A stretch of 64,000 bases of DNA, from contig CANNGA010000002.1 in assembly GCA_947504035.1 (NCBI GenBank), positions 124,001-188,000 on the forward strand, read 5' to 3'. Source of the stretch: an uncultured Flavobacteriaceae bacterium (GTDB lineage: Bacteria > Bacteroidota > Bacteroidia > Flavobacteriales > Flavobacteriaceae). The notes beneath the pieces are model-generated. The model had not been told where the DNA came from and did not search any database. It worked only from the letters and a program-made list of their open reading frames with translations. Position numbers and translations under genes: made by a program. This document shows, in pieces, positions 4,786 to 53,177 of the stretch; position 1 is the stretch's first letter, and every line of letters starts with the position of its first letter.

Positions 4786-4814
4786 TTAATTTGCAATCAA
4801 AAACATATATACAG

Positions 4815-4848
4815 AACCTGCAATGCTAACCCATTGTAGGTTTTTTTA
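4815..4848 (+). terminator. Rho-independent terminator of aroC
   Basis: An 11-bp stem (4815-4825 with 4832-4842, one G-T pair) with a 6-nt loop runs into a seven-T tract. It lies 30 bp after the aroC stop. Confidence 0.75.
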
Positions 4849-4960
4849 TTTTAGACTTTTTACAAATGCTTAGGTTAAAGCGTAGGGCCTTACTTTGCAA
4901 GGCAGCATGTTAATTAGTACCGTATTCCTCTAAAAAATACTTATATTGTTCTCTTAATCG

Positions 4961-8352: not shown

Positions 8353-8365
8353 ATGTATAGTTTTT

Positions 8366-8373
8366 TAAATTTG
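8366..8373 (+). promoter_or_regulatory. candidate -7 element (TAAATTTG) for the beta-helix lipoprotein gene
   Basis: Exact match to the Bacteroidota -7 consensus TAnnTTTG, 33 bp before the ATG at 8407. No clear -33 TTG is seen. It supports the start at 8407, because an upstream in-frame ATG at 8353 would lie before the transcription start. Confidence 0.45.
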
Positions 8374-8406
8374 AATAGATCAGATAAACCCCAATCAAAC
8401 ATAATT

Positions 8407-10305
8407 ATGAAAAACCTATTAACGCTAAAGCCCCTATTATTATCAAGTATGTTATTTCTTTTTATAGGGCTAGGATCCTGTAGTGATGATGAAATCTTTG
8501 TAGAGCCTGAAAGTACGGAACAAGTCGCTGAAGGAGAATCTGAAACTCCTGGTGCATCGGAAAATTCAGAAGATTCTGGAGAAGAAGGTGTAGATACATC
8601 TTTACCATGTGATTTTACTTTGGCTAATGCAGAGCCAAACAGCACAGTTGTTATAGATTGTACAATGAACTTAGAAGGTACAACCATTACAATACCTTCT
8701 GGAGTAACTATTTTAAGTAAAGGTGGTTCGATAACAAATGGTACTATTAATTTTTCGGAAGGTACAACTGTAGATAGTGAATTATTAAATAGCACGATAA
8801 CACTTGGAGGAAATGCTCCTGTTATAAAAGACGATACATTCGAATTTGCACCAGAACGTTGGGGCGTTGTAGAAGGTAAAGTTTCAGATGAAGTAGCATT
8901 TAGTAATAGAGACTCATTACAGAACGCTATTGATCTTGCAAAATCTTTAAATGTTAAAACTTTTGAAATAGGCGCTATGGATGCTTTCTTTCATTTAGAC
9001 TATGTATGGACAAATGCTAGAGGTTATAACGATCGTGCCATCCATTTACCATCTAATTTTCATCTTAAAATGTCGAATGAAACCTTCTTAAGGTTACAAC
9101 CAAATTTCTGGCCTAGAGGTTATTTTGTAAGTGTCGTAGAACAAAGAAATGTTAGGATTACTGGAGGTAATTTAATAGGTGATCGATACGAACATGATTA
9201 TTCTCCAATTACTGACGAAGTTGGAATACCAAGAAATACACATGAATGGCCAGGGTTATTAGTGATCTCAGGTTCTCAAGATGTTCTTGTAGATGGTACT
9301 TATATGGCTAATTCAACAGGAGATGCTTTAATTGTAGGTGCAGCAGGGAATAGAAATGATCCTAATGTTTTGTTTAATAAAAATATTATAGCAAGAAATT
9401 GTACAATGCATGAGTCCAGAAGAAACAATATTAGTATTACCGATGGAGAAGACATCACAATTGAAGGTTGTACCATAACTGATGCTGGTTTAGGAGAGAG
9501 TACTTTTGAAGGGAATAGAAAAATAATAACTTCTGCAGGGATTGCACCTAAAGTAGGTATAGATATTGAGCCTTTTAGAGGGTTTGAGCCTAATGGAGAT
9601 TTTATCAACTTTGAGAAAGTAGAACGTGTACTTGTTACAGGATGTACATTTACAGGAAATAATGTGAGTAGTTTTGTGAACTATTCAGGGACTGATGTTG
9701 TTTTTGAAAACAATTTTTCAGACCACACCGTTGGTGCTTCTTTTGATGATGGGGGAACTAAATTTTACAATAATACTTTAGAAGCTAATGAAAAGAATAG
9801 AGCTTTAAATGGTATTAATTTTGGAACTTTTATTGTTAACGTAAACGGGAGAGATGTGCAATATTCATCGGGTTCAGAAGCTATAGGTAATAAAATATCT
9901 GGTTTCTTAAGAGGCATAAGAGTAACAGGAAAAGATCCTATTGTAAGAGACAACATTATAGAAGATTTTAATGTAGGCGTGCAAGTTGATAGTGATAACG
10001 TTGTTTGTGAAAATAACCAAATGACGACCAACAGGTTCGTAGCTGCTTATGGCTTTTTTGTAGAAAATGTTAGTAATGGTAAATTCAACAATAATAAAAT
10101 GATACTACCAAGACGCCCACTTTATTTTAAAAACTTGAACAGAGATAACGGGTCTAAAATAACGATAGAAAATAATACGTTCGAATCTCTTGAAGGTTTC
10201 GATTTACTTTTTGAAAATGTTAGGAATATAACCTTAAAACAAAATGAATTTAAAAACACGAAAATTGAAGAACGTTCTACAACTAACTTTGTGGTAGAGA
10301 ATTAA
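8407..10305 (+). CDS. surface lipoprotein with right-handed parallel beta-helix (polysaccharide lyase-like fold)
   Basis: This 632-residue protein starts with a lipoprotein signal peptide (lipobox LGSC, Cys25). The next residues, SDDE, fit the flavobacterial lipoprotein export signal (an acidic run right after the Cys), so it is probably displayed on the cell surface. An acidic Ser/Glu/Gly linker runs to about residue 60. From about 140 onward there are many short imperfect repeats (for example NCTMHESRRNNISI, GCTITDAG, NNTLEAN) typical of pectate-lyase-like beta-helices. I assign no substrate or catalytic residue. It converges on the exopolysaccharide operon, so a role in cutting, modifying or binding that polymer is inference. 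An upstream in-frame ATG at 8353 would put 18 residues before the signal peptide and was not used. Confidence 0.82.
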   Translation: MKNLLTLKPLLLSSMLFLFIGLGSCSDDEIFVEPESTEQVAEGESETPGASENSEDSGEEGVDTSLPCDFTLANAEPNSTVVIDCTMNLEGTTITIPSGVTILSKGGSITNGTINFSEGTTVDSELLNSTITLGGNAPVIKDDTFEFAPERWGVVEGKVSDEVAFSNRDSLQNAIDLAKSLNVKTFEIGAMDAFFHLDYVWTNARGYNDRAIHLPSNFHLKMSNETFLRLQPNFWPRGYFVSVVEQRNVRITGGNLIGDRYEHDYSPITDEVGIPRNTHEWPGLLVISGSQDVLVDGTYMANSTGDALIVGAAGNRNDPNVLFNKNIIARNCTMHESRRNNISITDGEDITIEGCTITDAGLGESTFEGNRKIITSAGIAPKVGIDIEPFRGFEPNGDFINFEKVERVLVTGCTFTGNNVSSFVNYSGTDVVFENNFSDHTVGASFDDGGTKFYNNTLEANEKNRALNGINFGTFIVNVNGRDVQYSSGSEAIGNKISGFLRGIRVTGKDPIVRDNIIEDFNVGVQVDSDNVVCENNQMTTNRFVAAYGFFVENVSNGKFNNNKMILPRRPLYFKNLNRDNGSKITIENNTFESLEGFDLLFENVRNITLKQNEFKNTKIEERSTTNFVVEN

Positions 10306-10350
10306 AATTAAATTGTTGAAGTGGAACGCAACAATAAAATGTATTAAAAT

Positions 10351-10391
10351 AAAAAAAGGGAAAGCAAATTTTAATTTGCTTTCCCTTTTTT
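10351..10391. terminator. bidirectional terminator between convergent genes
   Basis: A near-perfect inverted repeat of about 18 bp per arm (A-rich start at 10351, centre near 10371-10372, T-run end at 10391), with A and T tracts on opposite sides. It can end transcription from both the lipoprotein gene and the exopolysaccharide operon. Confidence 0.85.
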
Positions 10392-10392
10392 C

Positions 10393-11247
10393 TTATAACT
10401 TCTGTTTTAATTCTTTAAACAGTGCGTCTGCTGTATTAAAAGAAAATTTACGCCCAAATAGCGCTTTAGAATTTAAAATAGCTTCTAGATCTGTAAGATC
10501 TAAAGCCCTAGGGAAATCTGGGCCTTTTTCCCAATCGATATAACGCAAATCATCATTTACGATAGTGGTCTTTAAATGTGAATCCATTAGAATGGATTGT
10601 ATCCAAATTTCATCGGTAGCTCTAGAATGTTTAAGTTTTTTTAGAAAGTTAGGGTTGGTCTCCAAAAATGTAAAAACAACCTTTAATGCGTCATGGGATA
10701 GGTTTATCCAATTACTTCCCGCATAATATGTTATAGGAAAACGCTTTATTTTAATCCCTAATGCTCTTTGTAAGCCTAAAGTTAGTCTGCCTTTAATTTT
10801 TACAAGGTTACGATTATTAGATTCCATAAACCAATACCGGTCTAACCGGTCGAAACCATGATTAAATCCCCATGTTTTAATAGGCAATGGGTTGGCATAC
10901 ATAAAGTTACTTTCTGTATTTTTTGCGAAAAAATCTTTGATATAGGCATTAGATTTTATAGGGAAATCATCACCACTAATCATACAATAGCGTTTATGTC
11001 CTACTTCATAAGCTTTTCTAAATATAAAGTCCATATTATAGATTTGGCTTACATGTCCCCAATAGACCTCTATAGTTTTAAAGTATTTAACAGTAGTATA
11101 CTGTGGCAGATCATCAATGACTAAGTCTGATTTTTTGTCAATTTGAACATAAACATTAAAATCATCTTTCAATTGTTCTATAAGTAACGATAAATGCTCT
11201 GGATGGTGATGTGCCAGAATAAGTATTGCTATATCGTGCTGTTTCAT
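10393..11247 (-). CDS. GT14-type (core-2/I-branching) beta-1,6-N-acetylglucosaminyltransferase family protein
   Basis: This 284-residue protein has the Branch-family layout. The N-terminus IAILILAHHHPEHLSLLI is followed by VYVQIDKKSD, a conserved WGH, the CMISGDDFP motif (near 95) and RYIDWEKGPDFPR near 245. Bacterial members of CAZy family GT14 occur in capsule and exopolysaccharide clusters, where they add a sugar (often GlcNAc or Xyl) to the repeat unit. Donor and linkage cannot be read from sequence. It is the last gene of the 13-gene minus-strand operon, and its stop abuts the bidirectional terminator. Confidence 0.87.
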   Translation of the reverse strand: MKQHDIAILILAHHHPEHLSLLIEQLKDDFNVYVQIDKKSDLVIDDLPQYTTVKYFKTIEVYWGHVSQIYNMDFIFRKAYEVGHKRYCMISGDDFPIKSNAYIKDFFAKNTESNFMYANPLPIKTWGFNHGFDRLDRYWFMESNNRNLVKIKGRLTLGLQRALGIKIKRFPITYYAGSNWINLSHDALKVVFTFLETNPNFLKKLKHSRATDEIWIQSILMDSHLKTTIVNDDLRYIDWEKGPDFPRALDLTDLEAILNSKALFGRKFSFNTADALFKELKQKL

Positions 11248-11249
11248 AA

Positions 11250-12236
11250 TTAGTTTTTATTTTTTAAACAATACAGTCTGCATACTGCTGAAAACAGTAA
11301 ATTTTGATTGGCAAACAAGCGAAATTTATCTTTATTTACATCTTCAGTTTTATAAGGAATAGGATATAAGTTTTGTGCTTTTAACTTGCTGAAAATATCT
11401 TGTTTTATGCTATAATCGTCAATACCCTTAAGGACACGTAAAAGCATTGTAGTAACTAATCCGCAGACTCTTTTTTTCATAGGGATATAGGCCACGGATT
11501 GTTTTCCAATCTCAGACTCATTAAAATTATCTATAGAAGACAATACAGTATGAATATCGTAAATCATTTTTTTAGTCTTGGCTAGATTGTTTGTACGCGT
11601 AATAGAACCCTCTCTTTGTAAAAAGTGAGCAATTGTATCATCTATAGCCATTACTTTTTCTGCCTTAAATACGGCTCTTGTATTGAATTCTATGTCTTCT
11701 ATATAAACACCTCTCATAAACCGTAATTGGTGTTTGTTTAAAAACGTCTTGCTGTATAGCTTATTACAAGCAGACCCCATGTATCTTATATCATGTAAGT
11801 ACTGTTCGCCTGTAAGCACCTTGTGGTGTGTAGTGCTTTTACCAGAATACACAAGGGTGCCATTTTCGGTAACGCCGTCTGCACCAAATTCTAGAATATC
11901 TAAATCATTAGCAATAGCAATGTTCGTGATTTTTTTTAAAGTGTTTTTTAAGATATAGTCATCAGAATCAACACACAAAATATAATCCCCATCAGCATTG
12001 TTAAAGCCTGTGTTTCTAGCACCACTAAGCCCTTGATTTTCTTGAGTAATAATCTTTAAGGAAGGATAAATTGCTTTCAAGTCTTCTAAAACTTTTAGAC
12101 TATCATCTGTTGAGCCATCGTTTACCGCTACTACTTCATAGCTATTGGTATTAATATCTTGCTCAAATAAGCTTTTTATACATTTTTGCAAATACCCTTC
12201 AACATTGTAAACAGGTACTATTATAGATAAAATCAT
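11250..12236 (-). CDS. family 2 glycosyltransferase
   Basis: This 328-residue GT-A enzyme starts with LSIIVPVYNVEGYLQKCIKS, typical of GT2. VAVNDGSTDDS follows (nucleotide-binding Asp), then the metal-binding VDSDDYI near 95. The C-terminal third is helical and divergent. It should transfer a nucleotide-activated sugar to the growing lipid-linked repeat unit at the inner membrane face. It sits 2 bp from its neighbours on both sides, consistent with cotranscription. The sugar is unknown. Confidence 0.92.
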   Translation of the reverse strand: MILSIIVPVYNVEGYLQKCIKSLFEQDINTNSYEVVAVNDGSTDDSLKVLEDLKAIYPSLKIITQENQGLSGARNTGFNNADGDYILCVDSDDYILKNTLKKITNIAIANDLDILEFGADGVTENGTLVYSGKSTTHHKVLTGEQYLHDIRYMGSACNKLYSKTFLNKHQLRFMRGVYIEDIEFNTRAVFKAEKVMAIDDTIAHFLQREGSITRTNNLAKTKKMIYDIHTVLSSIDNFNESEIGKQSVAYIPMKKRVCGLVTTMLLRVLKGIDDYSIKQDIFSKLKAQNLYPIPYKTEDVNKDKFRLFANQNLLFSAVCRLYCLKNKN

Positions 12237-12238
12237 AA

Positions 12239-13342
12239 TTAACGGTATTGGTAATAATAAAACATAAAATAGGTGAAACCATAGTAGACTAAAAGCACAA
12301 TGCCTATTTTTTTAAATTGATCTTTCCAAAATAAGGCTTTAAACAAGGGATAGCCCACAACGAAAGCCATTAAAAACCAAGAGAGATAAGCAAATCTATT
12401 TGAGAAATTAGCACGTATCACCATAATCCAAAAGGCATTACATACAATATAGGTATGTAAGATATGCTGGTAAATCTTGTCTTGAAACCCTTTTTTAATC
12501 ACATAAAAATAGGCTAATCCAAGTGGCGCAGCACTATACACTAAAAAGTCGTATCTAAACCCTGTAGAACTAAATTTCCCAGCACTAGCTTGACCACTTA
12601 AGTAAGCCGTTAAACGGTCGTCTCCAAAACCTAAGGAAGCAAATAGTTGTATGATAACACTTCCCATAGTTAGGGAGATAAAGATACTCAATATCCAAAA
12701 AATGAAATATTTTGAGGTGTCTTTTAGAAAGAATGTCGCAATTAATGCACTAATAGGAAGCATCATACTTTTATGAAAGACGACTGATAGCAAGAGGAAA
12801 AGGATCATCTTTACATTGTTTTTATAGACATAGGACAAACCAAGAACGAATAGTGAAGTGGCCATCCCGTTTCGAATACCATTAGTCCCATAAGGCCAAA
12901 ATGAAAAGGAACCTAACAATAATATAAATGAGAAAATATAGTAGTTGGGAAACCAACGTTTAGAGGCTAAATACAGGGGAAGGATATATATCGTTGCACA
13001 GACCAAAAAGAAAAACTCTACAGACATGATTTGAGAGCAGAATTTTAAAAAAATCTCAAACCCAACATCACCTTCAGGATTTATAGGCATACCATTTTTA
13101 AATTGATAGAAGGTTTGCGCATAGGTGGCCATGTCTGCAAAATACCTCCCACTAATAGGTCTTAAGCCCACATAACATAACATTAATAGTAATATTACTT
13201 TTGAGGCAATATTGTTATAAGCGAAGGCCTTAGTTTCGTAACCTGTTAAAACAAGCGTATGAAAGAAAGCGACAAAAGTCATTAACAAAATAAATTGAAA
13301 ATGATATAATGCATAATCAGAAAGTGGTATAAAATCAATCAT
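12239..13342 (-). CDS. EpsG/Wzy-type polysaccharide polymerase
   Basis: This 367-residue hydrophobic protein has about ten membrane segments and a conserved YGTNGIRNGMATSLFVLGL stretch in the middle, typical of the EpsG family. EpsG proteins act as Wzy-type polymerases joining flipped repeat units on the outer face of the inner membrane. With the Wzx-like flippase and Wza/Wzc-like exporters nearby it completes a Wzx/Wzy-type pathway. It overlaps the upstream SGNH gene by 8 bp. Wzy proteins diverge fast, so the call rests on topology, the mid-protein motif and context. Confidence 0.82.
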   Translation of the reverse strand: MIDFIPLSDYALYHFQFILLMTFVAFFHTLVLTGYETKAFAYNNIASKVILLLMLCYVGLRPISGRYFADMATYAQTFYQFKNGMPINPEGDVGFEIFLKFCSQIMSVEFFFLVCATIYILPLYLASKRWFPNYYIFSFILLLGSFSFWPYGTNGIRNGMATSLFVLGLSYVYKNNVKMILFLLLSVVFHKSMMLPISALIATFFLKDTSKYFIFWILSIFISLTMGSVIIQLFASLGFGDDRLTAYLSGQASAGKFSSTGFRYDFLVYSAAPLGLAYFYVIKKGFQDKIYQHILHTYIVCNAFWIMVIRANFSNRFAYLSWFLMAFVVGYPLFKALFWKDQFKKIGIVLLVYYGFTYFMFYYYQYR

Positions 13343-14270
13343 GATGCGATTTTAAGTGTTCTAAAAGCAAATGTGTTCGTTTTAGGACGCCTTTGCCATT
13401 TAAATGATAGGGCGTGTCATAAAAAAGTGTGTTTTCAAAAACATAATCTTTAGGCTGGCCTATAATAGAAAAATCATTTTTAAGTAAGCGTTGGTGTATC
13501 TTCTGGATTGTAGTTGCATTTAGTTGATATGAGGATTGGGTTAAACTAGGAAAGGTGATAATAAGTGTGGCTCCAATAGTTTTAAGCCTTGCGTTAAAAT
13601 CTTGAAGCATCTCTAGTGCTCCATTATCTATTTTACCTGTAAATTCATAATTATCAAATGCCGTTTTACCTAAATTCCAATGGGTATTATGGTCTCCATG
13701 GGCGTTAATTGAATACTCTGTATAATTTTTTTTCGAAGATGAAGCGGAAGGCTGTTGTTTAGATTTTAAATTATAGATAAAAGATTTTATTCTACCAAAT
13801 GCAAATTTTGGTAAAAATGAAGACATGTTTATAAGCTGGCGTAGCCTTATTAGTTTTATATTTTTAGGTACAGCCGTTAATGAAAAGAGTAAAGGTTCGT
13901 TACCGAAGCGTCCATTACCTATAAAATGAGAATATTCTGGAGCTAAAATGATGGTATCGCCTTTAGTAATATTTTGTTGTAATAAATCATCAATAATGTA
14001 TTGCAAACCATAACCCGCATGTATAGCATGATTAATTACAGGCTTGTTAGTCTGTTGCGATATAATTTCACTATTAAACCCAAACAAGACATTAGACCCC
14101 CCCGTAAGTATTAATTTAGGACGTTTTTCCGTATTAATGAGTTCGTGCTTTTTTATAAGCGCATAATCAATAGTTCTAGGTGTATTCTGGTTAGGTAATA
14201 TTAGCCCCAAAACTAGTAATGCAACGACAACGAAAAAAAAGATAATACTATTTACTAAGAACTTTTTCAT
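13335..14270 (-). CDS. membrane-anchored SGNH/GDSL-like protein paired with MBOAT
   Basis: This 311-residue protein has one N-terminal membrane segment (about 5-27) and an extracytoplasmic domain. LTGGSNVLFGF near 55-65 is a block-I-like GxS motif with the candidate Ser. DTPYHLNGKG near the C-terminus gives candidate catalytic Asp and His. The gene sits 5 bp from an MBOAT gene, the pairing seen for DltB/DltD and AlgI/AlgJ systems in which the SGNH partner helps transfer an acyl group to an exported polymer. I infer O-acylation of the exopolysaccharide. The SGNH motifs are weak, so activity is uncertain. Confidence 0.7.
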   Translation of the reverse strand: MKKFLVNSIIFFFVVVALLVLGLILPNQNTPRTIDYALIKKHELINTEKRPKLILTGGSNVLFGFNSEIISQQTNKPVINHAIHAGYGLQYIIDDLLQQNITKGDTIILAPEYSHFIGNGRFGNEPLLFSLTAVPKNIKLIRLRQLINMSSFLPKFAFGRIKSFIYNLKSKQQPSASSSKKNYTEYSINAHGDHNTHWNLGKTAFDNYEFTGKIDNGALEMLQDFNARLKTIGATLIITFPSLTQSSYQLNATTIQKIHQRLLKNDFSIIGQPKDYVFENTLFYDTPYHLNGKGVLKRTHLLLEHLKSHHD

Positions 14271-14275
14271 TTGAA

Positions 14276-15709
14276 TTAAAATTGAAAATATATAAATTCC
14301 TGTTTATCTGCACCAAACCAGAAAATGAAAATAATTAAAATTATATAAAGAGACCATCGGAGTGGCTTGGTTATTTTAGTAACATTTAAAACAAGCCCAT
14401 GTTCTTGCGCTCTATTATACCATTCTACGAGAATTAATATAAAAATAAACGCTAGTGGTTTTATATTGATTTCTGAAGCATAAAATTGAGAAGCCGAAAA
14501 AATACGTTTTATATAAAGGCAAGCATCTGTTAGACTTGCTGCTCTAAAAAAGATCCATGCAATTACAGTTAGTACAAATGTAGTAGCGATTTGAAATAGT
14601 TCTTTTAAAGAGATGAGCTTCTTTTCTTGAGCAATGCCACCTATATTTTTTCTGTTTTTGTTGAGTAATAGCAAGGGTAAAAAATAAATAGCATTAAGTA
14701 ATCCCCATACCATAAATGTCCAGTTTGCACCGTGCCAAAACCCGCTAATGATAAAAATGAGAAATGTATTTCGTACTTTCATCCAGGTGCCCCCCTTGCT
14801 GCCGCCTAAAGGGATATAAACATAATCTCTAAACCAGGTTGTTAAAGACATGTGCCATCGTCTCCAAAACTCTGCTATATCTCTAGAAAAGTAGGGATAT
14901 GCAAAATTTTGCATTAAATTAAAACCAAACAATCTAGCTGTACCAATAGCAATATCAGAATATCCTGCAAAGTCCCCATAAATTTGAAAGGCAAAAAATA
15001 CAGCACCAATACATAGCGATACGGTAGAAAATTGTTCGGGTGCATCAAAGACTTGATTGACTATTATAGCACAATTATCTGCTATAACTATTTTTTTGAA
15101 TAATCCCCATAATATTTGCCTTAAGCCATCACTCGCATTGTCATAATTAAATTGCCTTTTTTTATAGAATTGCGGCAATAAGTTTGTAGCACGTTCTATA
15201 GGCCCTGCAACAAGTTGTGGAAAAAAACTAACGAAGGCAAAAAATATGATAGGATCTTTAGTCGGTTTCAACTTTCCTTTATACACATCAATTGTGTAAC
15301 TCATAGTTTGGAAGGTGTAAAAACTAATACCGATAGGTAAAATAATATCGAGTGTAAAGGTATTAACATGAACACCAAAGTGATCGGCGAAGGCAACAAA
15401 TTCTTTAGCGAAAAAATTAAAATATTTAAAGATGCCTAAAAAACCTAAGTTCATAACCATACTTAAGGTAAGCCATCGTTTTTTTACTGTAGAAGCATTA
15501 GAACGGTCTATATAGAGCCCACAGTAAAAATCAATAATAGAACTAAATACAATTAGTGATAAAAATCGGTAATCCCACCACCCATAGAAGATATAGCTTA
15601 CTACTAATAAGAGCGCATTTTGTAGTCTTAAGTTTTTATTGAAAACAAACCAATACAACAGAAAAACTAGAGGCAAAAAAATAAAATACTCTAAAGAATT
15701 AAATAGCAT
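14276..15709 (-). CDS. MBOAT family O-acyltransferase (AlgI-like) ending in FIYFQF
   Basis: This 477-residue polytopic protein has the MBOAT hallmarks: FWRRWHMSLTTWFRDYVYIPLGG (in the middle third) and the catalytic-His segment SGFWHGANWTF (His near 325). AlgI-like MBOATs move acyl groups across the inner membrane for polysaccharide modification. The last six residues are FIYFQF, matching the FxYxxF C-terminal motif of DltX, whose Tyr is reported to carry the acyl group in the Dlt pathway. Here the motif would be built into the MBOAT. It is paired with the SGNH gene downstream and flanked upstream by an acyltransferase-3 gene. Confidence 0.93.
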   Translation of the reverse strand: MLFNSLEYFIFLPLVFLLYWFVFNKNLRLQNALLLVVSYIFYGWWDYRFLSLIVFSSIIDFYCGLYIDRSNASTVKKRWLTLSMVMNLGFLGIFKYFNFFAKEFVAFADHFGVHVNTFTLDIILPIGISFYTFQTMSYTIDVYKGKLKPTKDPIIFFAFVSFFPQLVAGPIERATNLLPQFYKKRQFNYDNASDGLRQILWGLFKKIVIADNCAIIVNQVFDAPEQFSTVSLCIGAVFFAFQIYGDFAGYSDIAIGTARLFGFNLMQNFAYPYFSRDIAEFWRRWHMSLTTWFRDYVYIPLGGSKGGTWMKVRNTFLIFIISGFWHGANWTFMVWGLLNAIYFLPLLLLNKNRKNIGGIAQEKKLISLKELFQIATTFVLTVIAWIFFRAASLTDACLYIKRIFSASQFYASEINIKPLAFIFILILVEWYNRAQEHGLVLNVTKITKPLRWSLYIILIIFIFWFGADKQEFIYFQF

Positions 15710-37472: not shown

Positions 37473-39020
37473 TTATTTAGGCGAGAATACCGTAAAGGGG
37501 ATCACCATCTCTTCCAAAGATACGCCGCCATGTTGATAGGTGTTCCTGTAATAGCTTACATAATGGTTGTAATTATTAGGGTATGCAAAAAAGAGATCGC
37601 CTTTTGCAAAAATAAAAGAGCTGCTCATATTAATAGCTGGGAGGTGAATGTCTTTGGGATTATCGGCAACTAAAACATCTTTTTTATCAAAGGTTAAACT
37701 TCTTCCTGTTTTGTATCGTAAATTAAGACTGGTATCACGGTCTCCAATAACTTTAGATGGGTGTTTTACATTTATAGTACCATGATCTGTCGTTAATATG
37801 AGTTTGAATCCCATACTTTGCGCTTGTTGAATCATATCTAACAATGGCGAGTTTTTAAACCAGCTTAGTGTTAAAGACCGGTAAGCCTTATCATTTGAAG
37901 CCAATTCCTTTACAACTTCCATTTCTGTTTTGGCATGAGACAACATGTCTACAAAATTGTAAACGACTACTGTTAAATCATTATCTTTTTGCGATTTAAA
38001 ATTATCAGCTAAGCGTTTGCCATTTTTTAAGTTGGTAATTTTATGATACTCGTATTTTAAATTAGAAAGTCCTAAACGTTTCATTTGCGCTTCTAAGAAG
38101 TCGGCCTCATGTAAATTTTTGCCACCATCATCGGTATCGTTTTTCCAATACTGAGGGTATAATTTTTCCATTTCACTAGGCATTAAACCAGAAAAAATAG
38201 CATTTCTAGCATACTGTGTTGCAGTAGGTAGAATACTAAAAAAGGCATTTTCTTGCGTTTTTTTATAGTGGTTGTTAATAATAGGTTCGAAAACTTTCCA
38301 CTGGTCGTATCTTAAATTATCAACGACCACGACTAATGTCGGTTGTTCCGTACTTAACTCTGGTGCTATTTTTTCTTTAAAGAGCGTATGCGACATTACG
38401 GGGGCATCAACAGAATTATCGAACCATTCCGGATAGTTCTTGTCTATAAATTTTCCAAATTGGGTGTTGGCTTCTGTTTTTTGAGACTCTAAAATTTCAA
38501 ACATACTAGGGTCTTCAATGTTCTCTAATTGAATTTCCCAATAAATTAGTTTTTGATAGAGGTTAACCCAATCGTCATAGGTATTCACCATGGCCAGATC
38601 CATCGCTATTTTTCTAAATTCCTGTTGGTAATTCGAAGTCGTTTTTTCAGAAACCAATCTCGAATGGTCTAAATTCTTTTTTAAACTTAAAAGAATTTGG
38701 TTAGGGTTAACAGGTTTTATAAGGTAATCTGCAATTTTATTACCAATAGCTTCTTCCATAATATATTCTTCCTCACTTTTTGTGATCATTACAATAGGAA
38801 GGTTCGCTTGCTTTTCTTTAATTTCATTTAAAGTTTCAAGTCCTGTAAGCCCTGGCATGTTTTCATCTAAAAAAACAATGTCAAAATTATGGTCTTCTAT
38901 AATATCTATGGCTTCAGTACCACTATTGCATGTGGTGAGCTTGTAATTTTTCTTTTCAAGAAATAAAATATGTGGTTTTAGTAAATCTATTTCGTCATCA
39001 ACCCAAAGGATATGTATCAT
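37473..39020 (-). CDS. porX: type IX secretion response regulator PorX (receiver + PglZ-like domain)
   Basis: This 515-residue protein has an N-terminal receiver domain (HILWVDDE; phospho-acceptor Asp52 in VFLDENMPG; Thr/Lys in MITKSEEE). An alpha-helical linker follows, then a PglZ/alkaline-phosphatase-superfamily domain with VVVVDNLRYDQW and TTDHGTINVKHPSK metal-binding motifs. PorX with PorY regulates type IX secretion in P. gingivalis, and its C-terminal domain is a metal-dependent phosphodiesterase. Length and architecture match. It suggests the organism uses T9SS, hence gliding or secreted adhesins and enzymes. It is divergent from the HD gene with an 84-bp gap. Confidence 0.95.
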   Translation of the reverse strand: MIHILWVDDEIDLLKPHILFLEKKNYKLTTCNSGTEAIDIIEDHNFDIVFLDENMPGLTGLETLNEIKEKQANLPIVMITKSEEEYIMEEAIGNKIADYLIKPVNPNQILLSLKKNLDHSRLVSEKTTSNYQQEFRKIAMDLAMVNTYDDWVNLYQKLIYWEIQLENIEDPSMFEILESQKTEANTQFGKFIDKNYPEWFDNSVDAPVMSHTLFKEKIAPELSTEQPTLVVVVDNLRYDQWKVFEPIINNHYKKTQENAFFSILPTATQYARNAIFSGLMPSEMEKLYPQYWKNDTDDGGKNLHEADFLEAQMKRLGLSNLKYEYHKITNLKNGKRLADNFKSQKDNDLTVVVYNFVDMLSHAKTEMEVVKELASNDKAYRSLTLSWFKNSPLLDMIQQAQSMGFKLILTTDHGTINVKHPSKVIGDRDTSLNLRYKTGRSLTFDKKDVLVADNPKDIHLPAINMSSSFIFAKGDLFFAYPNNYNHYVSYYRNTYQHGGVSLEEMVIPFTVFSPK

Positions 39021-46205: not shown

Positions 46206-46226
46206 GCTAACTGTATACAGAAATAT

Positions 46227-46263
46227 AAAAAAGGTCAAAACTTTATGAGTTTTGACCTTTTTT
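46227..46263. terminator. terminator of sucD, possibly also of the acylation operon
   Basis: A perfect 16-bp stem (46227-46242 with 46248-46263) with a 5-nt loop. The left arm starts with A6 and the right arm ends in T6, so it can work in both directions between convergent units. Confidence 0.85.
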
Positions 46264-46381
46264 AGGTTATATAAACGATTTGAAAATACCGTAATATATT
46301 TAAAAGCGCACTTTATTCTTTTTAGAAAGGACCTAAGCTATTATAGATACTGTTAATTATTTTAAAATAATTGAAAATGTA

Positions 46382-46519
46382 TTACCATGCTAAATATTTA
46401 AATCTACCATCTGGGTGTGGGCTAAAAAGGACAATCAAAGCTAAAAGAAATAAGTACCAAATAACTATAAGTATATTAGCCATTTTTTCACCAAATTTAT
46501 TAAAGAGCCAGTGATACAT
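46382..46519 (-). CDS. 45-residue DltX-like single-pass membrane protein ending in FKYLAW
   Basis: This is a short gene 2 bp after the MBOAT stop. The protein has a basic N-terminus with MYHWLFNKFGEK, one membrane segment (about 14-32), then SPHPDGRFKYLAW at the C-terminus. This size, topology and aromatic C-terminal F-x-Y-x-x-aromatic motif resemble DltX (about 50 residues, ending FxYxxF). In Dlt systems the DltX Tyr is reported to take the acyl group from the MBOAT DltB. The neighbours encode the other Dlt-like parts. Similarity is by pattern, not alignment score, and a small DUF-type accessory protein is the alternative. Confidence 0.7.
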   Translation of the reverse strand: MYHWLFNKFGEKMANILIVIWYLFLLALIVLFSPHPDGRFKYLAW

Positions 46520-46521
46520 GT

Positions 46522-47655
46522 TTAAATGTTTAGTACTAATAACGTTTTAAATACCTCTAGAGATTCGTTAAGAGTATTTTCGCTTACGATAACAAAGCTA
46601 AACATTACAAAGTGAATTGTAATGAAAATACCAAGGCCTTTTTTTAGTAAAGGTATATGATCTAACTTTTTTTGAAGAAAACTATTTTCATATTTATACC
46701 AAATGTTAATGGCTAAGGCATGTAGTAAAGCCCACAATATATACCGTATAGATATTTCATGCCATAAGCCTAAAGTTATCATACTTATTAAGATACTTAA
46801 TTTGGCATTACGGGTTATACTTAGAAATGGAAAGAAAATATAATCTTTACACCAATCAGATAACGAAATATGCCAACGTTTCCAAAAATCTGCAATATTA
46901 GTTGCCAGAAAAGGATAATTAAAGTTTTCCATTACTTTAAATCCAAATAATAAAGACAGACCTATAGCAACATCAGAATATCCTGAAAATTGAATGTAAG
47001 AATTTGCAAAAAAGCTAACAATTTTAAGGTAAGTGCTTCCCCATAGATAATCATCAGAAATACTACTTATAAAGGTATTTAACTTTCTAGTAATTATATA
47101 ATTTCCAAGAAAGGTAATCTTTGTTAAACCATATAGAATACGTTCTAACCCCATGGAAAAAAGTCGATTGTCCCATCTTCGCCTATTGTAATCTTTTATA
47201 AAGGTTTGAAAACGATTTATGGGACCCACTAAAAGTGTTGGTAAAAAAAACAAGTAATTAACATAATCTAAAAATGTATGTTTAGGTAATTGTTTTTTAT
47301 AAGCTTCTATAGCATAATGGATCTGTCTAAATGAATAATAGGAAAGACCAAGTGGTAAAATGGAACTTTGTGATACATTAAAACAGACAGCGTAGTCTAA
47401 TTTAAAAAACAAAAATATAAAACACATTTGGAGTACTACAACCAAAGTTGCTGCTGTAACAGAAGGCATGTATTTAAGAACATGGTAGTTAATGATACAA
47501 CTTAATCCTAATAGCAGTAAAGAAAGGGGTGATTTATAGAATAGGAAAATAATTGTAACCAACACAACAGGGATAAATTGTAGTTTCTCTGGTAGTCTCC
47601 AGGACAATATTAGTGCAGGAATACAAAACCCTATTAGAATTAATAAGATATTCAT
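46522..47655 (-). CDS. MBOAT family acyltransferase (DltB/AlgI-like)
   Basis: This 377-residue polytopic protein has the MBOAT signatures DFWKRWHISLSDWCKDYIFFPFLS and TLGLWHEISIRYILWALLHA, with the catalytic His near 298. Glu follows it instead of the usual Gly. It is about 100 residues shorter than the MBOAT of the exopolysaccharide operon and lacks its C-terminal FIYFQF, a motif that the next small gene seems to provide. Its start codon follows the SGNH stop without a gap. It should pass an acyl group from the carrier domain across the inner membrane. Confidence 0.9.
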   Translation of the reverse strand: MNILLILIGFCIPALILSWRLPEKLQFIPVVLVTIIFLFYKSPLSLLLLGLSCIINYHVLKYMPSVTAATLVVVLQMCFIFLFFKLDYAVCFNVSQSSILPLGLSYYSFRQIHYAIEAYKKQLPKHTFLDYVNYLFFLPTLLVGPINRFQTFIKDYNRRRWDNRLFSMGLERILYGLTKITFLGNYIITRKLNTFISSISDDYLWGSTYLKIVSFFANSYIQFSGYSDVAIGLSLLFGFKVMENFNYPFLATNIADFWKRWHISLSDWCKDYIFFPFLSITRNAKLSILISMITLGLWHEISIRYILWALLHALAINIWYKYENSFLQKKLDHIPLLKKGLGIFITIHFVMFSFVIVSENTLNESLEVFKTLLVLNI

Positions 47656-48531
47656 TTATAGGTTGTGTTTAATTGTTTTTAATAACCAATTCGTATATAT
47701 ACTTCTACCTTGTTCATTTAAGTGCGCATTATCTATACAATGCTTATAATACATGTGGGGACCATTATAATCCCAATATTCGATGTCACTATTTTTAATA
47801 TAAATATCAAGCGCTTTTTTTTGGTTTGCTTTAAAAGATGATGTGTAGATTAAATTTTTAGAATGTAGAGGTTTTGGTGTGTCTACAATTACAGTTTTTA
47901 TATCATGTTTTTCTAATAAGCGGATACTTTCAAAAATATAATTTATTTCATCTTGAGGTTTAATCTGTCTTATTTTAGGAATATGAGATAAAGAATCAAA
48001 TTTTATTGGTTTATTAAATTGTCTTGGAGAACATCTATAATTAGAATCATACATTCGTTTATTCTTGTCGGAAAAAGTATAGCTGAAAACAAGTTTATTT
48101 ATAGCAGTGAGTTCATTTATCATATTATATTTAACATCTAAATTAATAGCAACCAGCTCTTTTTGGAATAGCACCAAATTAGGCTTAGACTTTACAATGT
48201 TACCTATTAAATCTTGAGACAGAAACTTTATAATAGGGTCGTTGTTATCCCAAATTTTTACAAGTCTTATATTATTGACACTTTCATTAGAGCAAGCGAC
48301 ACCATGAGCAACTAGAGAAGAACCTATTATGACGACTTTATGGCTATTATTGTCTTTTTCAAAAGCACGCATCATATATTGAATTTGGTCATCGTAATGT
48401 TTTTTGTTTTCTACAGATATTTTATTTGAAATGGAATAATGTAATAGAATAATCACTAATTGCGATAAGATGAAAAGGATACCAACCCAAATCCAAATGG
48501 TTAAAGAGGGGATTTTTAAAGTTTTAGACAT
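47656..48531 (-). CDS. membrane-anchored SGNH/DltD-like protein
   Basis: This 291-residue protein has one N-terminal membrane segment (about 11-30) and an extracytoplasmic domain. It contains VVIIGSSLVAHG (block I, candidate Ser near 71) and the C-terminal DNAHLNEQGRSIYTNW (Asp-x-x-His near 268-271), as in SGNH hydrolases and DltD. In the Dlt pathway DltD is needed for the final transfer to the polymer. It overlaps the ligase-carrier gene by 8 bp. The sequence is divergent, so family membership rests on motifs, topology and context. Confidence 0.78.
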   Translation of the reverse strand: MSKTLKIPSLTIWIWVGILFILSQLVIILLHYSISNKISVENKKHYDDQIQYMMRAFEKDNNSHKVVIIGSSLVAHGVACSNESVNNIRLVKIWDNNDPIIKFLSQDLIGNIVKSKPNLVLFQKELVAINLDVKYNMINELTAINKLVFSYTFSDKNKRMYDSNYRCSPRQFNKPIKFDSLSHIPKIRQIKPQDEINYIFESIRLLEKHDIKTVIVDTPKPLHSKNLIYTSSFKANQKKALDIYIKNSDIEYWDYNGPHMYYKHCIDNAHLNEQGRSIYTNWLLKTIKHNL

Positions 48532-50383
48532 CTTTTAATTTTTGACTTAAGATAGCTTCAGTCGTTTTTAAGCTGTTAATAGTCATCATCTCAGAAGTTG
48601 AAAATTGAATCCCAAATTGCTGTTCTAAACTAGTTATAAAAATAAGATGTCCCATAGAATCCCATCCTTCTAAAGATTTAGAAGTATCCATCATCGTAAT
48701 TTTATCAATAGCGACACCAAATGCCTCAGAAGCACTTGCCTTAATAATGTGTTGATGGGTTTCATTTAACGTATCTGTTTTTATGTTTTTACGTTGTGAG
48801 ATGATTAATTTAAGAACTTCGTTCGTTTGAATTTTTCCAGACAAACCTTTTGGTAATGTTTCAAAGAAAAAAACATCTTTTGGAATTTGACTTTGCTCTA
48901 ATAAAGGTCGTAAAAAAGCTATTAATTCGGTTTTTTCAAGTGTAATGTTGGGTTTCGTAACTATAGCAGAGACTAATTTTTCACCAAAGTTTGTGTCGGG
49001 TATTCCTAAACAAATACTTTCTAGTATTTTTGGGTTTGTGTTAATCATTTCGGTAACCTGTTCAGGGTAAACATTAATACCTCCTGCATTTATAGTATTT
49101 TTGGTTCTACCTACAATTTTGTAAAACCCTTTGGTATCACGAACTGCAATATCCCCAGTAATTAACCACCCTTCTTGTAAAATAGCTTTGGTTGCTTCTT
49201 CATCATTTAGATAACCTTTAAAAATATGATTGCCTTTTAACCATAAAACACCTTCTTCATTGGCTTTAGCCTCAACACCGTTTTCTGTAATTATTTTTGC
49301 TTTGCAATCAATAGGAAGGCCTATGGTGCCTTTTTTGCATGGAGGATTAATTGTACAAAATAAAGATCCTGCTACCGTTTCGGTGAGGCCATATACATTT
49401 ATTATTTGCGTTTTAAATATAGCTTCGAAATCGTACCACAATTTTTCTTCTAATTTAGAAGCTACCGATATCACACATTTAAAATCTTCAGTTTGAAAAC
49501 TGTCTTCATAACTGTCTTTAAATTTTTCCATAAAGGAAAGTACAGTTGGCACGGTTATAAAATGTGTAACTCTATATTTGTATATAGCGTTAAAAAGTGA
49601 TTCAATATTAGAAACATCAAAAGTAAAGGGACGTACCCATGTTGCTTGATTAAAAAGTGTTAATAAAGGGCCTTGTATACAACCATCGGCATGGTATAGC
49701 ATTAAAATATTAAGAATACGAGCCTCATGATCTAAATGATATGCTTTTGTTAAAGTGTGTAGGTGCGTCAAGAGGTTCTCATGCGTAATGCGTACGCCTT
49801 TTGGTGCAGCCGTTGTGCCAGATGTAAATATGATGTAAGCTAAATGCGAAGGCGGTATCTTTATTAAAGGTTTGTGAGATGCTGTAACCGTATCTAAAAT
49901 AGACGGAAATGTAGATTTGGTTTCGGGAGTTATTGTTTTTTTCTGTTTTAAAAGCCTATTCAATAATTTCCCTTTTTTTTGACGCTCTTCATGTATTTTT
50001 AAATGAAATAGGGCGGCGTTGTCGCTATCGATATGTCGAGAGGTAAATAGGGCGACATCCATGACAAATCCATTAACTTCAGACTTTTTAATAATAGCCT
50101 TTGCGCGTTCCGATTGCACCTCGGGATCTAAAAATACCGTTACAATACCGTATTTTAAAAACGCTATAAAAAAGAGCGCAGTGTAATAATCGTTGGTCGT
50201 AGATAAAATAATTTTATCTCCAGGTTTTAAATCGTTTTTCTGAAAATAGCTGCACAGTTTATTAACATCATTTAGAAGCTGTTTATAGCTTATATTTTTG
50301 CTTTTTTCTTGAAGAAAAGTATGATTTTGAAACTTTGAATGTTCTAGTGTTTCAAACACTTCTGAAATGTTAGAGATATGCAT
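48524..50383 (-). CDS. AMP-dependent ligase fused to acyl/peptidyl carrier domain (DltA-DltC-like)
   Basis: This 619-residue protein has a full adenylation domain: A3 core IFTSGTTAAPKGV near 186-198, A5 NVYGLTETVAG, A7-A8 GWLITGDIAVRDTKGFYKIVGRTKN, and the A10 Lys in LSGKIQTNE. A carrier domain of about 75 residues follows, with the phosphopantetheine Ser in GWDSMGHLIF (near 576). It would activate an acid as acyl-AMP and load it on its own carrier arm. The specificity pocket cannot be read reliably, so D-alanine is only one candidate. It overlaps both neighbours by 8-14 bp. Confidence 0.9.
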   Translation of the reverse strand: MHISNISEVFETLEHSKFQNHTFLQEKSKNISYKQLLNDVNKLCSYFQKNDLKPGDKIILSTTNDYYTALFFIAFLKYGIVTVFLDPEVQSERAKAIIKKSEVNGFVMDVALFTSRHIDSDNAALFHLKIHEERQKKGKLLNRLLKQKKTITPETKSTFPSILDTVTASHKPLIKIPPSHLAYIIFTSGTTAAPKGVRITHENLLTHLHTLTKAYHLDHEARILNILMLYHADGCIQGPLLTLFNQATWVRPFTFDVSNIESLFNAIYKYRVTHFITVPTVLSFMEKFKDSYEDSFQTEDFKCVISVASKLEEKLWYDFEAIFKTQIINVYGLTETVAGSLFCTINPPCKKGTIGLPIDCKAKIITENGVEAKANEEGVLWLKGNHIFKGYLNDEEATKAILQEGWLITGDIAVRDTKGFYKIVGRTKNTINAGGINVYPEQVTEMINTNPKILESICLGIPDTNFGEKLVSAIVTKPNITLEKTELIAFLRPLLEQSQIPKDVFFFETLPKGLSGKIQTNEVLKLIISQRKNIKTDTLNETHQHIIKASASEAFGVAIDKITMMDTSKSLEGWDSMGHLIFITSLEQQFGIQFSTSEMMTINSLKTTEAILSQKLKDV

Positions 50384-53177
50384 TTAATAATGATTGTTTT
50401 AATAGTTTACCATTACTGTTATATGGCAATTCGTTTAGTATAATTAATTGGTTTGGTATTTTTTTAATTCCAAATGCTTTTGCTAGTAAGGTATTCGTTT
50501 TTTGTTTTACAGCCTTTTCTTGATTATAGAATTCTTTTTGCAAAACTAAAAAAGCGACGACCTTTTCATGATCTTCTTTTGTATATGCAGAGACATGACA
50601 ATCTTCGATAAAAGGTTGTTCTTGTAAAAATTGTTGAATAACATCTAAATAAATTAATTCTTCTGTCGCCGTTTTTACAATGTTGCGTTTTCTCCCTAGT
50701 AATTGAATATAACCACCTTCAATATATTTAGCATTGTCTTGTGTGTAAAACCATCCGTTTTTTAATACAGATGCTGTTTTTGTTTCATCTTTTAGATAAC
50801 CTTTCATTAATGTATCACTATATATTCTTAATTCTCCTTTTTCTCCAAAAGGAACTAAGCGATCATTTTCATCAACGATTTGTGCAATACATCCAATAGG
50901 TTTTCCTATAGTATCTATATCTATCGTGGCGTCTGTAGGGCTTTGAGATATACATATTCCAGAAGTCTCTGAGAGGCCGTAATAATTTAGAATGGATAGA
51001 TTATAGTTCATCTTAAAGGCTGTTCTTAAGTCTAGACTTAATATGTTTCCAGTACACATAAGTGTTTGTATTGTATCCAACTGGCCTCTAATTTTATCTT
51101 TATATTTTATAGTTTGTCTTAAAAAGGCAGGGTTACTAGCTAAAATTGTAGAATTGCTGGCAGCAATACTTTCGGTGATGGCAAACAAGTTTGTTTTAGT
51201 GTTTTCTTTTGGTATGACAACTGCAGCTCCAACATGTAAAGCAGATATAGATGCGTTTCTAAGGCCACTCATGCTTTCTAATCCGCCAAGCGCAAAGAAG
51301 CGGTCAATAGCTTTCCAATGAAATGTTTCTGTAATATGTCTACCACTTCTGTACAAATTTCCATGAGATAATTGCACCCCTTTAGGCGTTCCTGTAGAAC
51401 CTGAGGTATATAGAATTACGGCATTATCACAAGGGGTTATTTTTTCAGTTTGAAAAGTCGTTTCTGGAGCATTTTCTAGCCAATCAGCAAAATAAGTTAA
51501 GGCATCATTTTGTAATGCGTCGTCGTAATCAAATAGAACAGTAGGTAATGTTTTAAAAAGGGATTTTTTGTCTAAATAATAAGACTCATTGGTAAAAAGA
51601 TATTTGGCTTCTGTTTGTTCAAGTATGGTTGCTATAGCAGTGTCTGTTAAATGATCAGCGATAGGAACAACTACAATACCAGCATGCATACATGCCCAAA
51701 ATAACAAAATAGCTTCGGCATGTAAAGGGTTACATATTACTATTCTATCGTTTTTTTTAAGAGAAGCGTTATCTAAAGCAGCTTGGATAGAAGGGATAAT
51801 GGCATTGCAATCTTCGTAAGTATACTCACTTTCATCTTGTAGAGCAATTAGGGCGGTATTTTCACCAAATGAATGTACCGTGTTGTGCCATAGATGTTTT
51901 AGTGTTTGTTTATGAGAAGGTACACTATAATCTTGAGTCATGATATAGTTTTGCAACTTCAAACCTGATTCAGATAGGGGCAATACTTGTAATAAGCCTA
52001 GATGCTCTAAAGTGCTAAGTTCTTTTATTATGATAGCCTCAGAAACGTTAGTTGTAACACACATCTCTTCTATAGTGAATGCTTTTTGGGCTAAGTATAT
52101 TAATTTTGTAGCTAATTCTGATAATTTTAAATTTCCAAGCGCTTTAATTCTATCTACATAAACTGGGTGTCTTTCTAGTAGATGTTGTAGGTTTCCTCCA
52201 AAACGAGTAGAATCTATAATGACTTTTTGCTGGTGTAAAGAAATATTTAAAAGCGCGTTTATGATGAGTCTTGATGTTTTATAAACAGGGAGGTCTTCTA
52301 GTGAGAAAGAAGATAAGGTGATGTCTTTCCAAAATTTTGGAAGAATTGCTATTAGTGCGTTATAATCTTTGGTTGAAGGCGAAGACGTAACAGTAATTGA
52401 TGAATTTACAGTAATGTCATTTGCAATAAATAACTCTGGTTCAGAAAAAATAAAGCCTTCTTTAGTATCATGTTTGAGCAAGGTATTGAAAGCAGATTGA
52501 TAATCTCTACCATGAATTTGTTTGCAACCTCTTTCAAAAAAAGGATCAGGTTCGGCATTAGATAGATGCACGTGCGGAAACAAAATAGCACCATCTTTAT
52601 AGACAACGCGTAGTAATTCATTAAGCATTACCAATTGGTCAAATCTATGAAAAGCATCTAAACCAACAGCAAAAGCAATACTTTTATCTTTTAAAGGTAA
52701 TGGTTTATTAAGATCGCAAAATAAAACTGAAACATTTTTGAGGTCTTTCATCCAAAAATAAAATCCTTGGTAGCCTAAAACATCTTTATTGCCTTCCCAA
52801 GTTGTAATAATATGTTGTTCTGGAAACAAACCACTAAGTACACTCGTAAGCCATCCGCTTCTGTCCCATAAATTTAAAATAACGTCTCCTTTCTTAATAT
52901 TTAATTTAAGTTGCTTTAAAAAGGGAAATAAAGCTTTTAAAGCCTCATTAAAAGGTTGAAAACAAGCGTACATATCATAGATGGGACGTCTGTTTTTTTG
53001 CTTGAGAAAGTGTTCGTATCTGTAACTGTTTTTTAATGTATTTGTTCGAATTTTTTCTTCTGTATTTCGAGTACTCTCAGGAAATATATCAACTTCATTA
53101 AAAAAATAAAAATGCTCTATTTGTGGAATTAAATTAACAACAGTATCCTTAAATACTTTTTTTTTATCAAAATTCAT
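50370..53177 (-). CDS. methyltransferase-like / AMP-ligase fusion protein
   Basis: This 935-residue protein is unusual. Residues about 90-205 look like a class I SAM-methyltransferase domain (GDVILNLWDRSGWLTSVL, later LPLKDKSIAFAVGLDAFHRF), but the glycine-rich SAM loop is atypical. Residues about 340-415 resemble winged-helix segments (AFTIEEMCVTTNVSEAIIIKELSTLEHLGLL). The rest is an adenylation domain with A3 LYTSGSTGTPKGV near 586-598, YGLSETSG, FYTQDNAKY in place of YxTGD, and the A10 Lys in YNSNGKLLKQ. No carrier domain follows. It is the first gene of the five-gene operon and overlaps the next by 14 bp. The substrate is unknown. Confidence 0.82.
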   Translation of the reverse strand: MNFDKKKVFKDTVVNLIPQIEHFYFFNEVDIFPESTRNTEEKIRTNTLKNSYRYEHFLKQKNRRPIYDMYACFQPFNEALKALFPFLKQLKLNIKKGDVILNLWDRSGWLTSVLSGLFPEQHIITTWEGNKDVLGYQGFYFWMKDLKNVSVLFCDLNKPLPLKDKSIAFAVGLDAFHRFDQLVMLNELLRVVYKDGAILFPHVHLSNAEPDPFFERGCKQIHGRDYQSAFNTLLKHDTKEGFIFSEPELFIANDITVNSSITVTSSPSTKDYNALIAILPKFWKDITLSSFSLEDLPVYKTSRLIINALLNISLHQQKVIIDSTRFGGNLQHLLERHPVYVDRIKALGNLKLSELATKLIYLAQKAFTIEEMCVTTNVSEAIIIKELSTLEHLGLLQVLPLSESGLKLQNYIMTQDYSVPSHKQTLKHLWHNTVHSFGENTALIALQDESEYTYEDCNAIIPSIQAALDNASLKKNDRIVICNPLHAEAILLFWACMHAGIVVVPIADHLTDTAIATILEQTEAKYLFTNESYYLDKKSLFKTLPTVLFDYDDALQNDALTYFADWLENAPETTFQTEKITPCDNAVILYTSGSTGTPKGVQLSHGNLYRSGRHITETFHWKAIDRFFALGGLESMSGLRNASISALHVGAAVVIPKENTKTNLFAITESIAASNSTILASNPAFLRQTIKYKDKIRGQLDTIQTLMCTGNILSLDLRTAFKMNYNLSILNYYGLSETSGICISQSPTDATIDIDTIGKPIGCIAQIVDENDRLVPFGEKGELRIYSDTLMKGYLKDETKTASVLKNGWFYTQDNAKYIEGGYIQLLGRKRNIVKTATEELIYLDVIQQFLQEQPFIEDCHVSAYTKEDHEKVVAFLVLQKEFYNQEKAVKQKTNTLLAKAFGIKKIPNQLIILNELPYNSNGKLLKQSLLNAYL

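Follow-up and report, generated by a model that had tools for sequence, protein, structure and literature searches.

A putative carrier-dependent envelope acylation operon with a tyrosine-bearing microprotein in a Gram-negative flavobacterium

The window analyzed here, a stretch of 64,000 nucleotides from an uncultured Flavobacteriaceae bacterium (assembly GCA_947504035.1, contig CANNGA010000002.1), carries on its minus strand a five-gene operon that we interpret, with a probability of about 0.74, as a carrier-dependent envelope acylation machine in which a separate microprotein would act as a tyrosine acyl shuttle. This interpretation rests on the anatomy of the genes, the conservation of a C-terminal motif, the co-occurrence of the genes in other genomes, the separation of their MBOAT (membrane-bound O-acyltransferase) proteins in a tree, and the absence of the operon from the same genomic junction in relatives. 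The features are as follows.

50370..53177, minus strand: 935-residue protein (lig1), with an N-terminal methyltransferase-fold domain within residues 1-416, a helix-turn-helix (HTH)-like segment and a C-terminal AMP-binding domain that lacks a carrier (open reading frame (ORF), Pfam, fold search)
50406..51881, minus strand: adenylation domain of lig1, residues 433-924, with an MSG[LV]R block at the site of the DltA FDLS (Pfam, alignment)
48524..50383, minus strand: 619-residue protein (lig2), an AMP-forming ligase of the acyl-CoA-synthetase type with a fused carrier domain (ORF, Pfam)
48563..48745, minus strand: phosphopantetheine carrier domain of lig2, residues 547-607, with the motif GWDS and Ser576 (PF00550)
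47656..48531, minus strand: 291-residue SGNH-like putative transferase with an N-terminal hydrophobic helix and the motifs GSS ... DNAH (motif residues)
46522..47655, minus strand: 377-residue short MBOAT without a C-terminal shuttle motif of its own (Pfam, alignment)
46382..46519, minus strand: 45-residue single-pass microprotein, a DltX analogue (ORF, motif, profile)
46385..46402, minus strand: C-terminal hexapeptide FKYLAW, a putative acyl-shuttle motif with Tyr42 as the predicted acyl acceptor (alignment)
46226..46264, minus strand: terminator-like stem of 17 pairs directly 3' of the operon, weak evidence because the region holds 5 such sites and its shuffled versions average 3.2

The first-pass annotation of this DNA had described five minus-strand genes, and the ORF list bears it out in coordinates and spacing alike, adjacent genes overlapping by 14 and 8 bp or standing 0 and 2 bp apart. 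Pfam assigned AMP-binding domains to the 935- and 619-residue proteins, a PP-binding domain to the latter and MBOAT to the 377-residue protein; the HTH in the 935-residue protein fell below threshold, and the 291- and 45-residue proteins had no significant Pfam match.

The acyl group delivered by DltB is accepted on DltX by the tyrosine of a hexapeptide, FXYXXF, at the C-terminus, and PatA carries the same kind of hexapeptide fused at its own C-terminus, with two extra helices, and takes acetyl coenzyme A (acetyl-CoA) as donor; for both, the shuttle is described as experimentally supported in the accessible part of PMC12148441. Known DltX termini include FLYFGF (excerpt of PMC11035591) and, in Bacillus thuringiensis, FIYNEF (excerpt of PMC5541007), and we found FIYNEF also at the end of Staphylococcus aureus DltX, the gene for which lies ahead of dltA. 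The last six residues of the window microprotein are FKYLAW. It has the DltX features of a single pass and a C-terminal FXYXXF with invariant tyrosine, apart from a final Trp in place of Phe. Its hydrophobic stretch starts at residue 14 (mean 2.77), and the tyrosine is invariant in 7/7 aligned sequences, S. aureus DltX among them. The first-pass annotation overlooked this FXYXXF-like shuttle motif, which is the strongest evidence. The gene itself is easily overlooked, given that the microprotein has no Pfam or NCBIfam family match at E up to 1. In the dlt locus of an L. oris plasmid (L060 1-4692) DltX is unannotated, and none was seen in the 400 bases checked ahead of dltA.

Nine Gram-negative loci, the window counted, hold a short MBOAT without its own motif and, nearby, a membrane protein of 45-58 residues with Tyr at position -4. 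Phe stands at -6 in 8/9 of these microproteins, and in 8/9 of the loci the microprotein gene lies at most 300 bp from that of the MBOAT, the ninth (L055) having it past its SGNH gene. As background, Phe at -6 together with Tyr at -4 occurs in 11 of the 1819 distinct ORFs of 35-60 residues from all loci, 8 of which are these microproteins and 3 others. A profile built from three microproteins returned, as the best matches of two genomes outside the profile, G209 and G199 (E 2.2e-7 and 9.2e-7), proteins that adjoin an MBOAT. The 45-codon gene, whose conservation beside this MBOAT had been named beforehand as a point on which the proposal would stand or fall, is thus conserved there in other genomes.

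A genome scan with the window MBOAT yielded four loci, two of them close (38-39% identical), L008 from a Nitrosomonas metagenome-assembled genome (MAG) and L009 from a Paraglaciecola MAG. Each has a ligase-carrier fusion, a sulfotransferase-like gene, a short MBOAT, a 45-residue microprotein (ending FAYLEI in L008 and FKYLAL in L009) and an SGNH-like gene. L053 (genome G199), from another Bacteroidota family, matches the window in both the content and the order of the five genes, with a microprotein ending FRYFGL and an added class III aminotransferase; the latter we set aside as a clue to the cargo, since it was seen in L053 alone and is not specific. In L056 (G794) lig1, ligase-carrier, SGNH, MBOAT, a 48-residue microprotein and a separate methyltransferase-like gene are present with the modules split and reordered, and L093 (G1208) has lig1, ligase-carrier, SGNH, MBOAT, a 49-residue microprotein ending FIYWDN and a radical SAM gene. 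L094 (G1262; 9187-14412) comprises a separate carrier, a TIGR03099-like decarboxylase (below cut-off), a sulfotransferase-like gene, a ligase, an SGNH gene, a 47-residue microprotein ending FRYAGF and an MBOAT. L054 (G209), whose microprotein ends FRYLGL, is cut off by an ORF that looks transposase-like by eye and by the end of its contig, and L055 (G373; 6818-9022) holds a short MBOAT, an SGNH-like gene and a 58-residue microprotein ending FFYSDF. A ligase-carrier fusion, or a ligase with a separate carrier, thus clusters with the split MBOAT in 7/9 loci (window, L008, L009, L053, L056, L093 and L094). Because all five genes recur, identically arranged, at L053 in another family, and because the microprotein profile found two more members adjoining an MBOAT in genomes outside the profile, the gene set appears to recur more often than chance would give.

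To place the motif we used a profile to collect the MBOAT ORFs of all loci; with near-copies removed these ORFs numbered 58, 46 of them at least 420 residues long. Tyr at -4 with Phe or Pro at -6 occurred at the C-terminus of 45/46 of these long ORFs, which are not 45 independent events, since their likeness to this family was the basis of their collection and some of them are almost the same sequence. The 12 ORFs below 420 residues comprise L034 (386 residues, with its own FIYFQF), two Gram-positive DltB proteins and the nine split loci, and none of the 11 short MBOATs formed by the last two groups has its own motif. The window MBOAT, in which His261 and His298 are invariant in 6/6, ends LLVLNI and so does not have the fused shuttle motif of the PatAB type, and the five other MBOATs of the same genome all end FIYFQF. 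Given that 45/46 long MBOATs carry the motif and that the nine short ones have a tyrosine microprotein, the shuttle motif appears to sit either on the MBOAT or on its neighbor.

In a tree of the MBOATs (340 shared columns; ORFs found by pattern, L089 not included) the proteins of the window, L008, L009, L053, L054, L056 and L093 formed a clade of seven (97/93), and 42 of 43 fused rows formed a second (99/98), the remaining row, L084, being a very long branch. With L084 left out, a single branch separated the 42 fused rows from the nine split MBOATs and both DltB (Shimodaira-Hasegawa-like approximate likelihood ratio test, SH-aLRT, 99). DltB grouped with the L094 protein without good support (81/35), and in the approximately unbiased (AU) test neither a clade uniting the seven with DltB (p-AU 0.053) nor one uniting all split MBOATs with DltB (p-AU 0.076) was rejected. 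Because of the long branches, we are unsure of the deep branching order suggested by these sequences. The MBOAT does stand apart from the fused type, so that a second of the three points named beforehand also came out in favor of the first-pass proposal; the third, whether the ligases belong to an unrelated pathway, was judged by gene neighborhood.

The mechanism we propose, each chemical step of which we infer, as we do the cargo, the acceptor and the role of the 935-residue protein, would begin with the 619-residue ligase activating a carboxylic acid and loading its own fused carrier. The MBOAT would then move the acyl group across the inner membrane onto Tyr42 of the microprotein (FKYLAW), from which the SGNH-like protein, anchored in the membrane, would take it up on its serine. 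This protein in turn would esterify a polymer beyond the inner membrane, with exopolysaccharide or lipopolysaccharide (LPS) as the likeliest acceptor. The 935-residue protein would probably tailor or extend the cargo by means of its methyltransferase-fold and second adenylation domains.

Several observations weigh against this proposal. The 555-residue MBOAT of L089 (952-2619) ends ELLTPF and breaks the motif rule, and no ORF ending in a shuttle motif was found in that 4-kb locus. The L056 microprotein ends GGYINI, without the Phe. Among the ORFs of at least 150 residues in the 16 kb covered at L055 there is no ligase, and the split shuttle of that locus may use acyl-CoA. The DltB model TIGR04091 scores 9 fused MBOATs at 145-189 bits and 8/9 split ones at 152-197 (L054 unscored), with the window MBOAT at 175 bits against a cut-off of 375; since the fused controls match equally well, we rejected this score as evidence of kinship to DltB. 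In the 935-residue protein, motif I of the methyltransferase domain is degenerate (D/N-x-W-x-R-S/T-G-W in 3/3), so that methyltransferase activity is uncertain on sequence grounds. Finally, the SGNH assignment is putative, standing on few motif residues, and the predicted model of the protein, with a predicted local distance difference test (pLDDT) score of 41, is too poor to confirm it.

Those SGNH residues, G70, S72, D267 and H270, are invariant in five homologues. Weak GDSL matches were obtained for the homologues in L008 and L009 (below threshold) and, weaker still, in L093; none was obtained for those of L053, L055, L056 and L094. The window protein had no sequence match in the PDB, and a Foldseek search gave nothing below E 0.001, its weak matches including the SGNH esterases Axe2 and sialate O-acetylesterase. 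Comparison of the SGNH profile with DltD returned a probability of 0.1%, with sensitivity limited by a DltD alignment of two sequences.

The nature of the cargo was approached through the ligases. The nearest solved relatives of lig2 are oxalyl- and malonyl-CoA synthetases, and that of the lig1 adenylation domain is linear gramicidin synthase. The PF00550 carrier match in lig2 scores 21.3 bits (cut-off 20.8), and the GWDS motif with its serine is conserved in 5/5 fused lig2 carriers. In amino-acid-type adenylation domains the aspartate of the FDxS block anchors the alpha-amino group. This block reads FDLS in both DltA tested, HADG or HTDG in 5/5 lig2 (where a conserved Asp one column later in the carrier-fused ligases makes misalignment possible) and MSGLR or MSGVR in 3/3 lig1, MSGLR being found in L093 as well. 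Identity between lig2 and DltA is 17-21%, and no DltA model is among the best 25 models for lig2. Given that lig2 is of the acyl-CoA-synthetase type and without the DltA FDxS, D-alanine appears doubtful as the cargo. The ligase of L094, a locus with a separate carrier, reads SFDFG (by eye), which suggests that members of the system may differ in cargo and that this variant possibly handles an amino acid.

These data bear directly on whether the operon might be a diverged, horizontally spread D-alanylation system, with D-alanine as cargo and LPS as acceptor, like the dlt(X)ABCD genes of Dickeya or of Gram-positives. Such a system would have the same functional parts, and a few Gram-negatives are reported to have dlt genes that include a DltX of like topology (accessible part of PMC5541007); moreover, lig1 scores 128-136 bits with DltA models, and the tree without L084 places the nine split MBOATs with both DltB opposite the fused rows. 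On the other hand, the FDxS found in both DltA and in a further ligase of this genome (L059) is missing from every lig2 and lig1 compared, the carrier is fused with no separate DltC, there is no DltD match in the profile comparison, and seven of the split MBOATs form their own clade, with union to DltB borderline (p-AU 0.053). We consider D-alanylation unlikely. The L059 ligase (FDFS; 4472-5980) belongs to a second activation site of this genome (L059 3377-11091, contig C2), inside another polysaccharide region, with a carrier-like match just after the ligase and proteins resembling FemAB/GNAT-type acyltransferases (by eye).

There is a good probability that the system works like Dlt; that it is a Dlt system is not supported by the sequence features tested. 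The first-pass annotation had called the operon a complete analogue of Dlt, and this holds for the chain of ligase, carrier, motif-less MBOAT, single-pass microprotein with an FXYXX-hydrophobic hexapeptide and extracytoplasmic SGNH-type transferase, but fails in the family sense. Unlike in DltXABCD, which D-alanylates teichoic acid, the carrier forms one protein with a ligase from a different subfamily, similarity of the SGNH protein to DltD is not detectable, an additional 935-residue protein brings a methyltransferase-fold and a second adenylation domain with no Dlt counterpart, the microprotein gene is last rather than first, the host is Gram-negative and the MBOAT belongs to a clade of its own. 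The dlt operons of Dickeya and Pectobacterium, compared by their description in the accessible part of PMC5541007, share the Gram-negative host and the DltX-like topology, and are described there as D-alanylation genes. PatA/PatB-type systems likewise pair an MBOAT with an SGNH protein and have a motif of the FXYXXF type, but in them the MBOAT itself carries the motif and the donor is acetyl-CoA (PMC12148441, in part), whereas the window has a separate microprotein and a carrier gene.

Another reading is that the MBOAT, together with the microprotein and the SGNH protein, only O-acetylates, drawing on acetyl-CoA as PatA does in the accessible text of PMC12148441, with the two ligases serving an unrelated pathway. 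In favor of it, L055 has a split MBOAT, an SGNH-like gene and a microprotein, while the larger ORFs in the 16 kb covered there include no ligase. However, ligase and carrier share the cluster in seven of the nine loci, the other two being L055 and L054, the context of which is truncated, and the two ligase genes overlap by 14 bp, and the second of them overlaps the SGNH gene by 8 bp, which links all three. We therefore give a plain O-acetylation unit little credence.

The label "MTase-like", given earlier to the 935-residue protein, was upheld by fold search, where among the matches listed 46/50 were a methyltransferase, concerned a methylation step or had bound S-adenosylmethionine or S-adenosylhomocysteine (best E 1e-7); the model of the 416-residue N-terminal domain has a low-confidence pLDDT of 47, its methyltransferase core alone being usable for the search, and the sequence match to S-adenosylmethionine-dependent methyltransferases is weak (E 0.13). 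In L056 the methyltransferase-like part and the adenylation domain are separate genes of one cluster, which supports their belonging to one pathway.

Short biosynthetic lines, too, can combine adenylation domains with a carrier and a methyltransferase fold, and it was not unreasonable to consider that the operon makes a small molecule or lipid, with the MBOAT acylating a lipid. The accessory genes of the loci do vary (aminotransferase, sulfotransferase-like, radical SAM), which would suit such a product. Yet none of the five proteins has a Pfam match to a condensation, ketosynthase, thioesterase or exporter domain, and a shuttle motif with an SGNH partner is a feature of envelope-polymer systems according to the accessible part of PMC12148441; a small-molecule or lipid product thus seems to us quite improbable.

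If the envelope acylation proposal is correct, the leading guess for the acceptor is exopolysaccharide, given that the window has a polysaccharide cluster and that exosortase-type genes surround L009. The cluster, at 10393-32024 and 14 kb from the operon, encodes glycosyltransferases, Polysacc_synt, an EpsG family protein, an export protein, an acyltransferase-3, two UDP/GDP-sugar dehydrogenases and an ordinary MBOAT with fused motif (14276-15709, FIYFQF). L009 lies among exosortase A-associated genes (clusters TIGR03098-TIGR03101), with TIGR03099 and TIGR03100 above cut-off and TIGR03101 just below; the window ligase, by comparison, scores 159 bits against TIGR03098, for which the cut-off is 592, and none of the 20 scanned window genes outside the operon had an exosortase-type family name.

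The operon sits between sucD and fabG, both on the opposite strand and here 7.3 kb apart. In 7/8 other genomes of the same genus, and in one other genome of the order, the distance is about 0.12-0.86 kb; in the eighth, sucD is not within the 1.5 kb beside fabG. The five operon proteins had no match in 12 other loci at this junction. Because the junction in related genomes is short and without the operon proteins, either this lineage acquired the operon or there were repeated losses, acquisition being the simpler account. A 191-residue lipoprotein-like ORF (by eye), unrelated to the operon, adjoins fabG in four same-genus genomes (L066-L069), in three of them within the sucD-fabG interval, and the junction thus seems to take up genes.

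Distribution searches, in which only a few candidates are scored for each genome so that divergent members would escape notice, found the SGNH protein in 1/199 genomes of the family and the MBOAT in 1/12 of the genus, in both cases the window's own genome. Across the phylum the MBOAT profile hit 56/395 genomes at E 1e-50, mostly through a long MBOAT. Profiles run in other groups with strict cut-offs hit 2/295, 1/300, 2/4, 13/398 and 2/152 genomes, each count including the center genome and the last two also fused MBOATs. A plasmid search with the MBOAT gave 136 records, none of which reached 60% identity; among the best 25 of the 136 the highest value was 34.7%.

Taken with the loci above, we think it somewhat probable that Gram-negatives hold a separate, rare and horizontally moving class of carrier-fed MBOAT-microprotein-SGNH machines that put other, enzyme-tailored acids on exopolysaccharide or LPS. 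If so, this class would contradict the generalization, as found in the accessible part of PMC12148441, that MBOAT/SGNH pathways other than Dlt have neither a DltX-like microprotein nor a carrier. The nine loci with a free microprotein, seven with ligase and carrier, allow split acyl shuttles to be compared with fused ones as they occur in nature, make the tyrosine-shuttle model testable outside D-alanylation, and point to a new surface modification. Literature searches, the coverage of which left out most subscription literature, turned up no description that we recognized as this system.

Among lesser observations, PADLOC gave no match for the four larger operon proteins, and a Bacteroidota promoter pattern matched the window 4 times against 6.7 expected, with 0 matches upstream of the operon. 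Elsewhere in the window, 37473-39020 encodes a protein with a response regulator receiver and a PglZ domain, which we take to be PorX-like.

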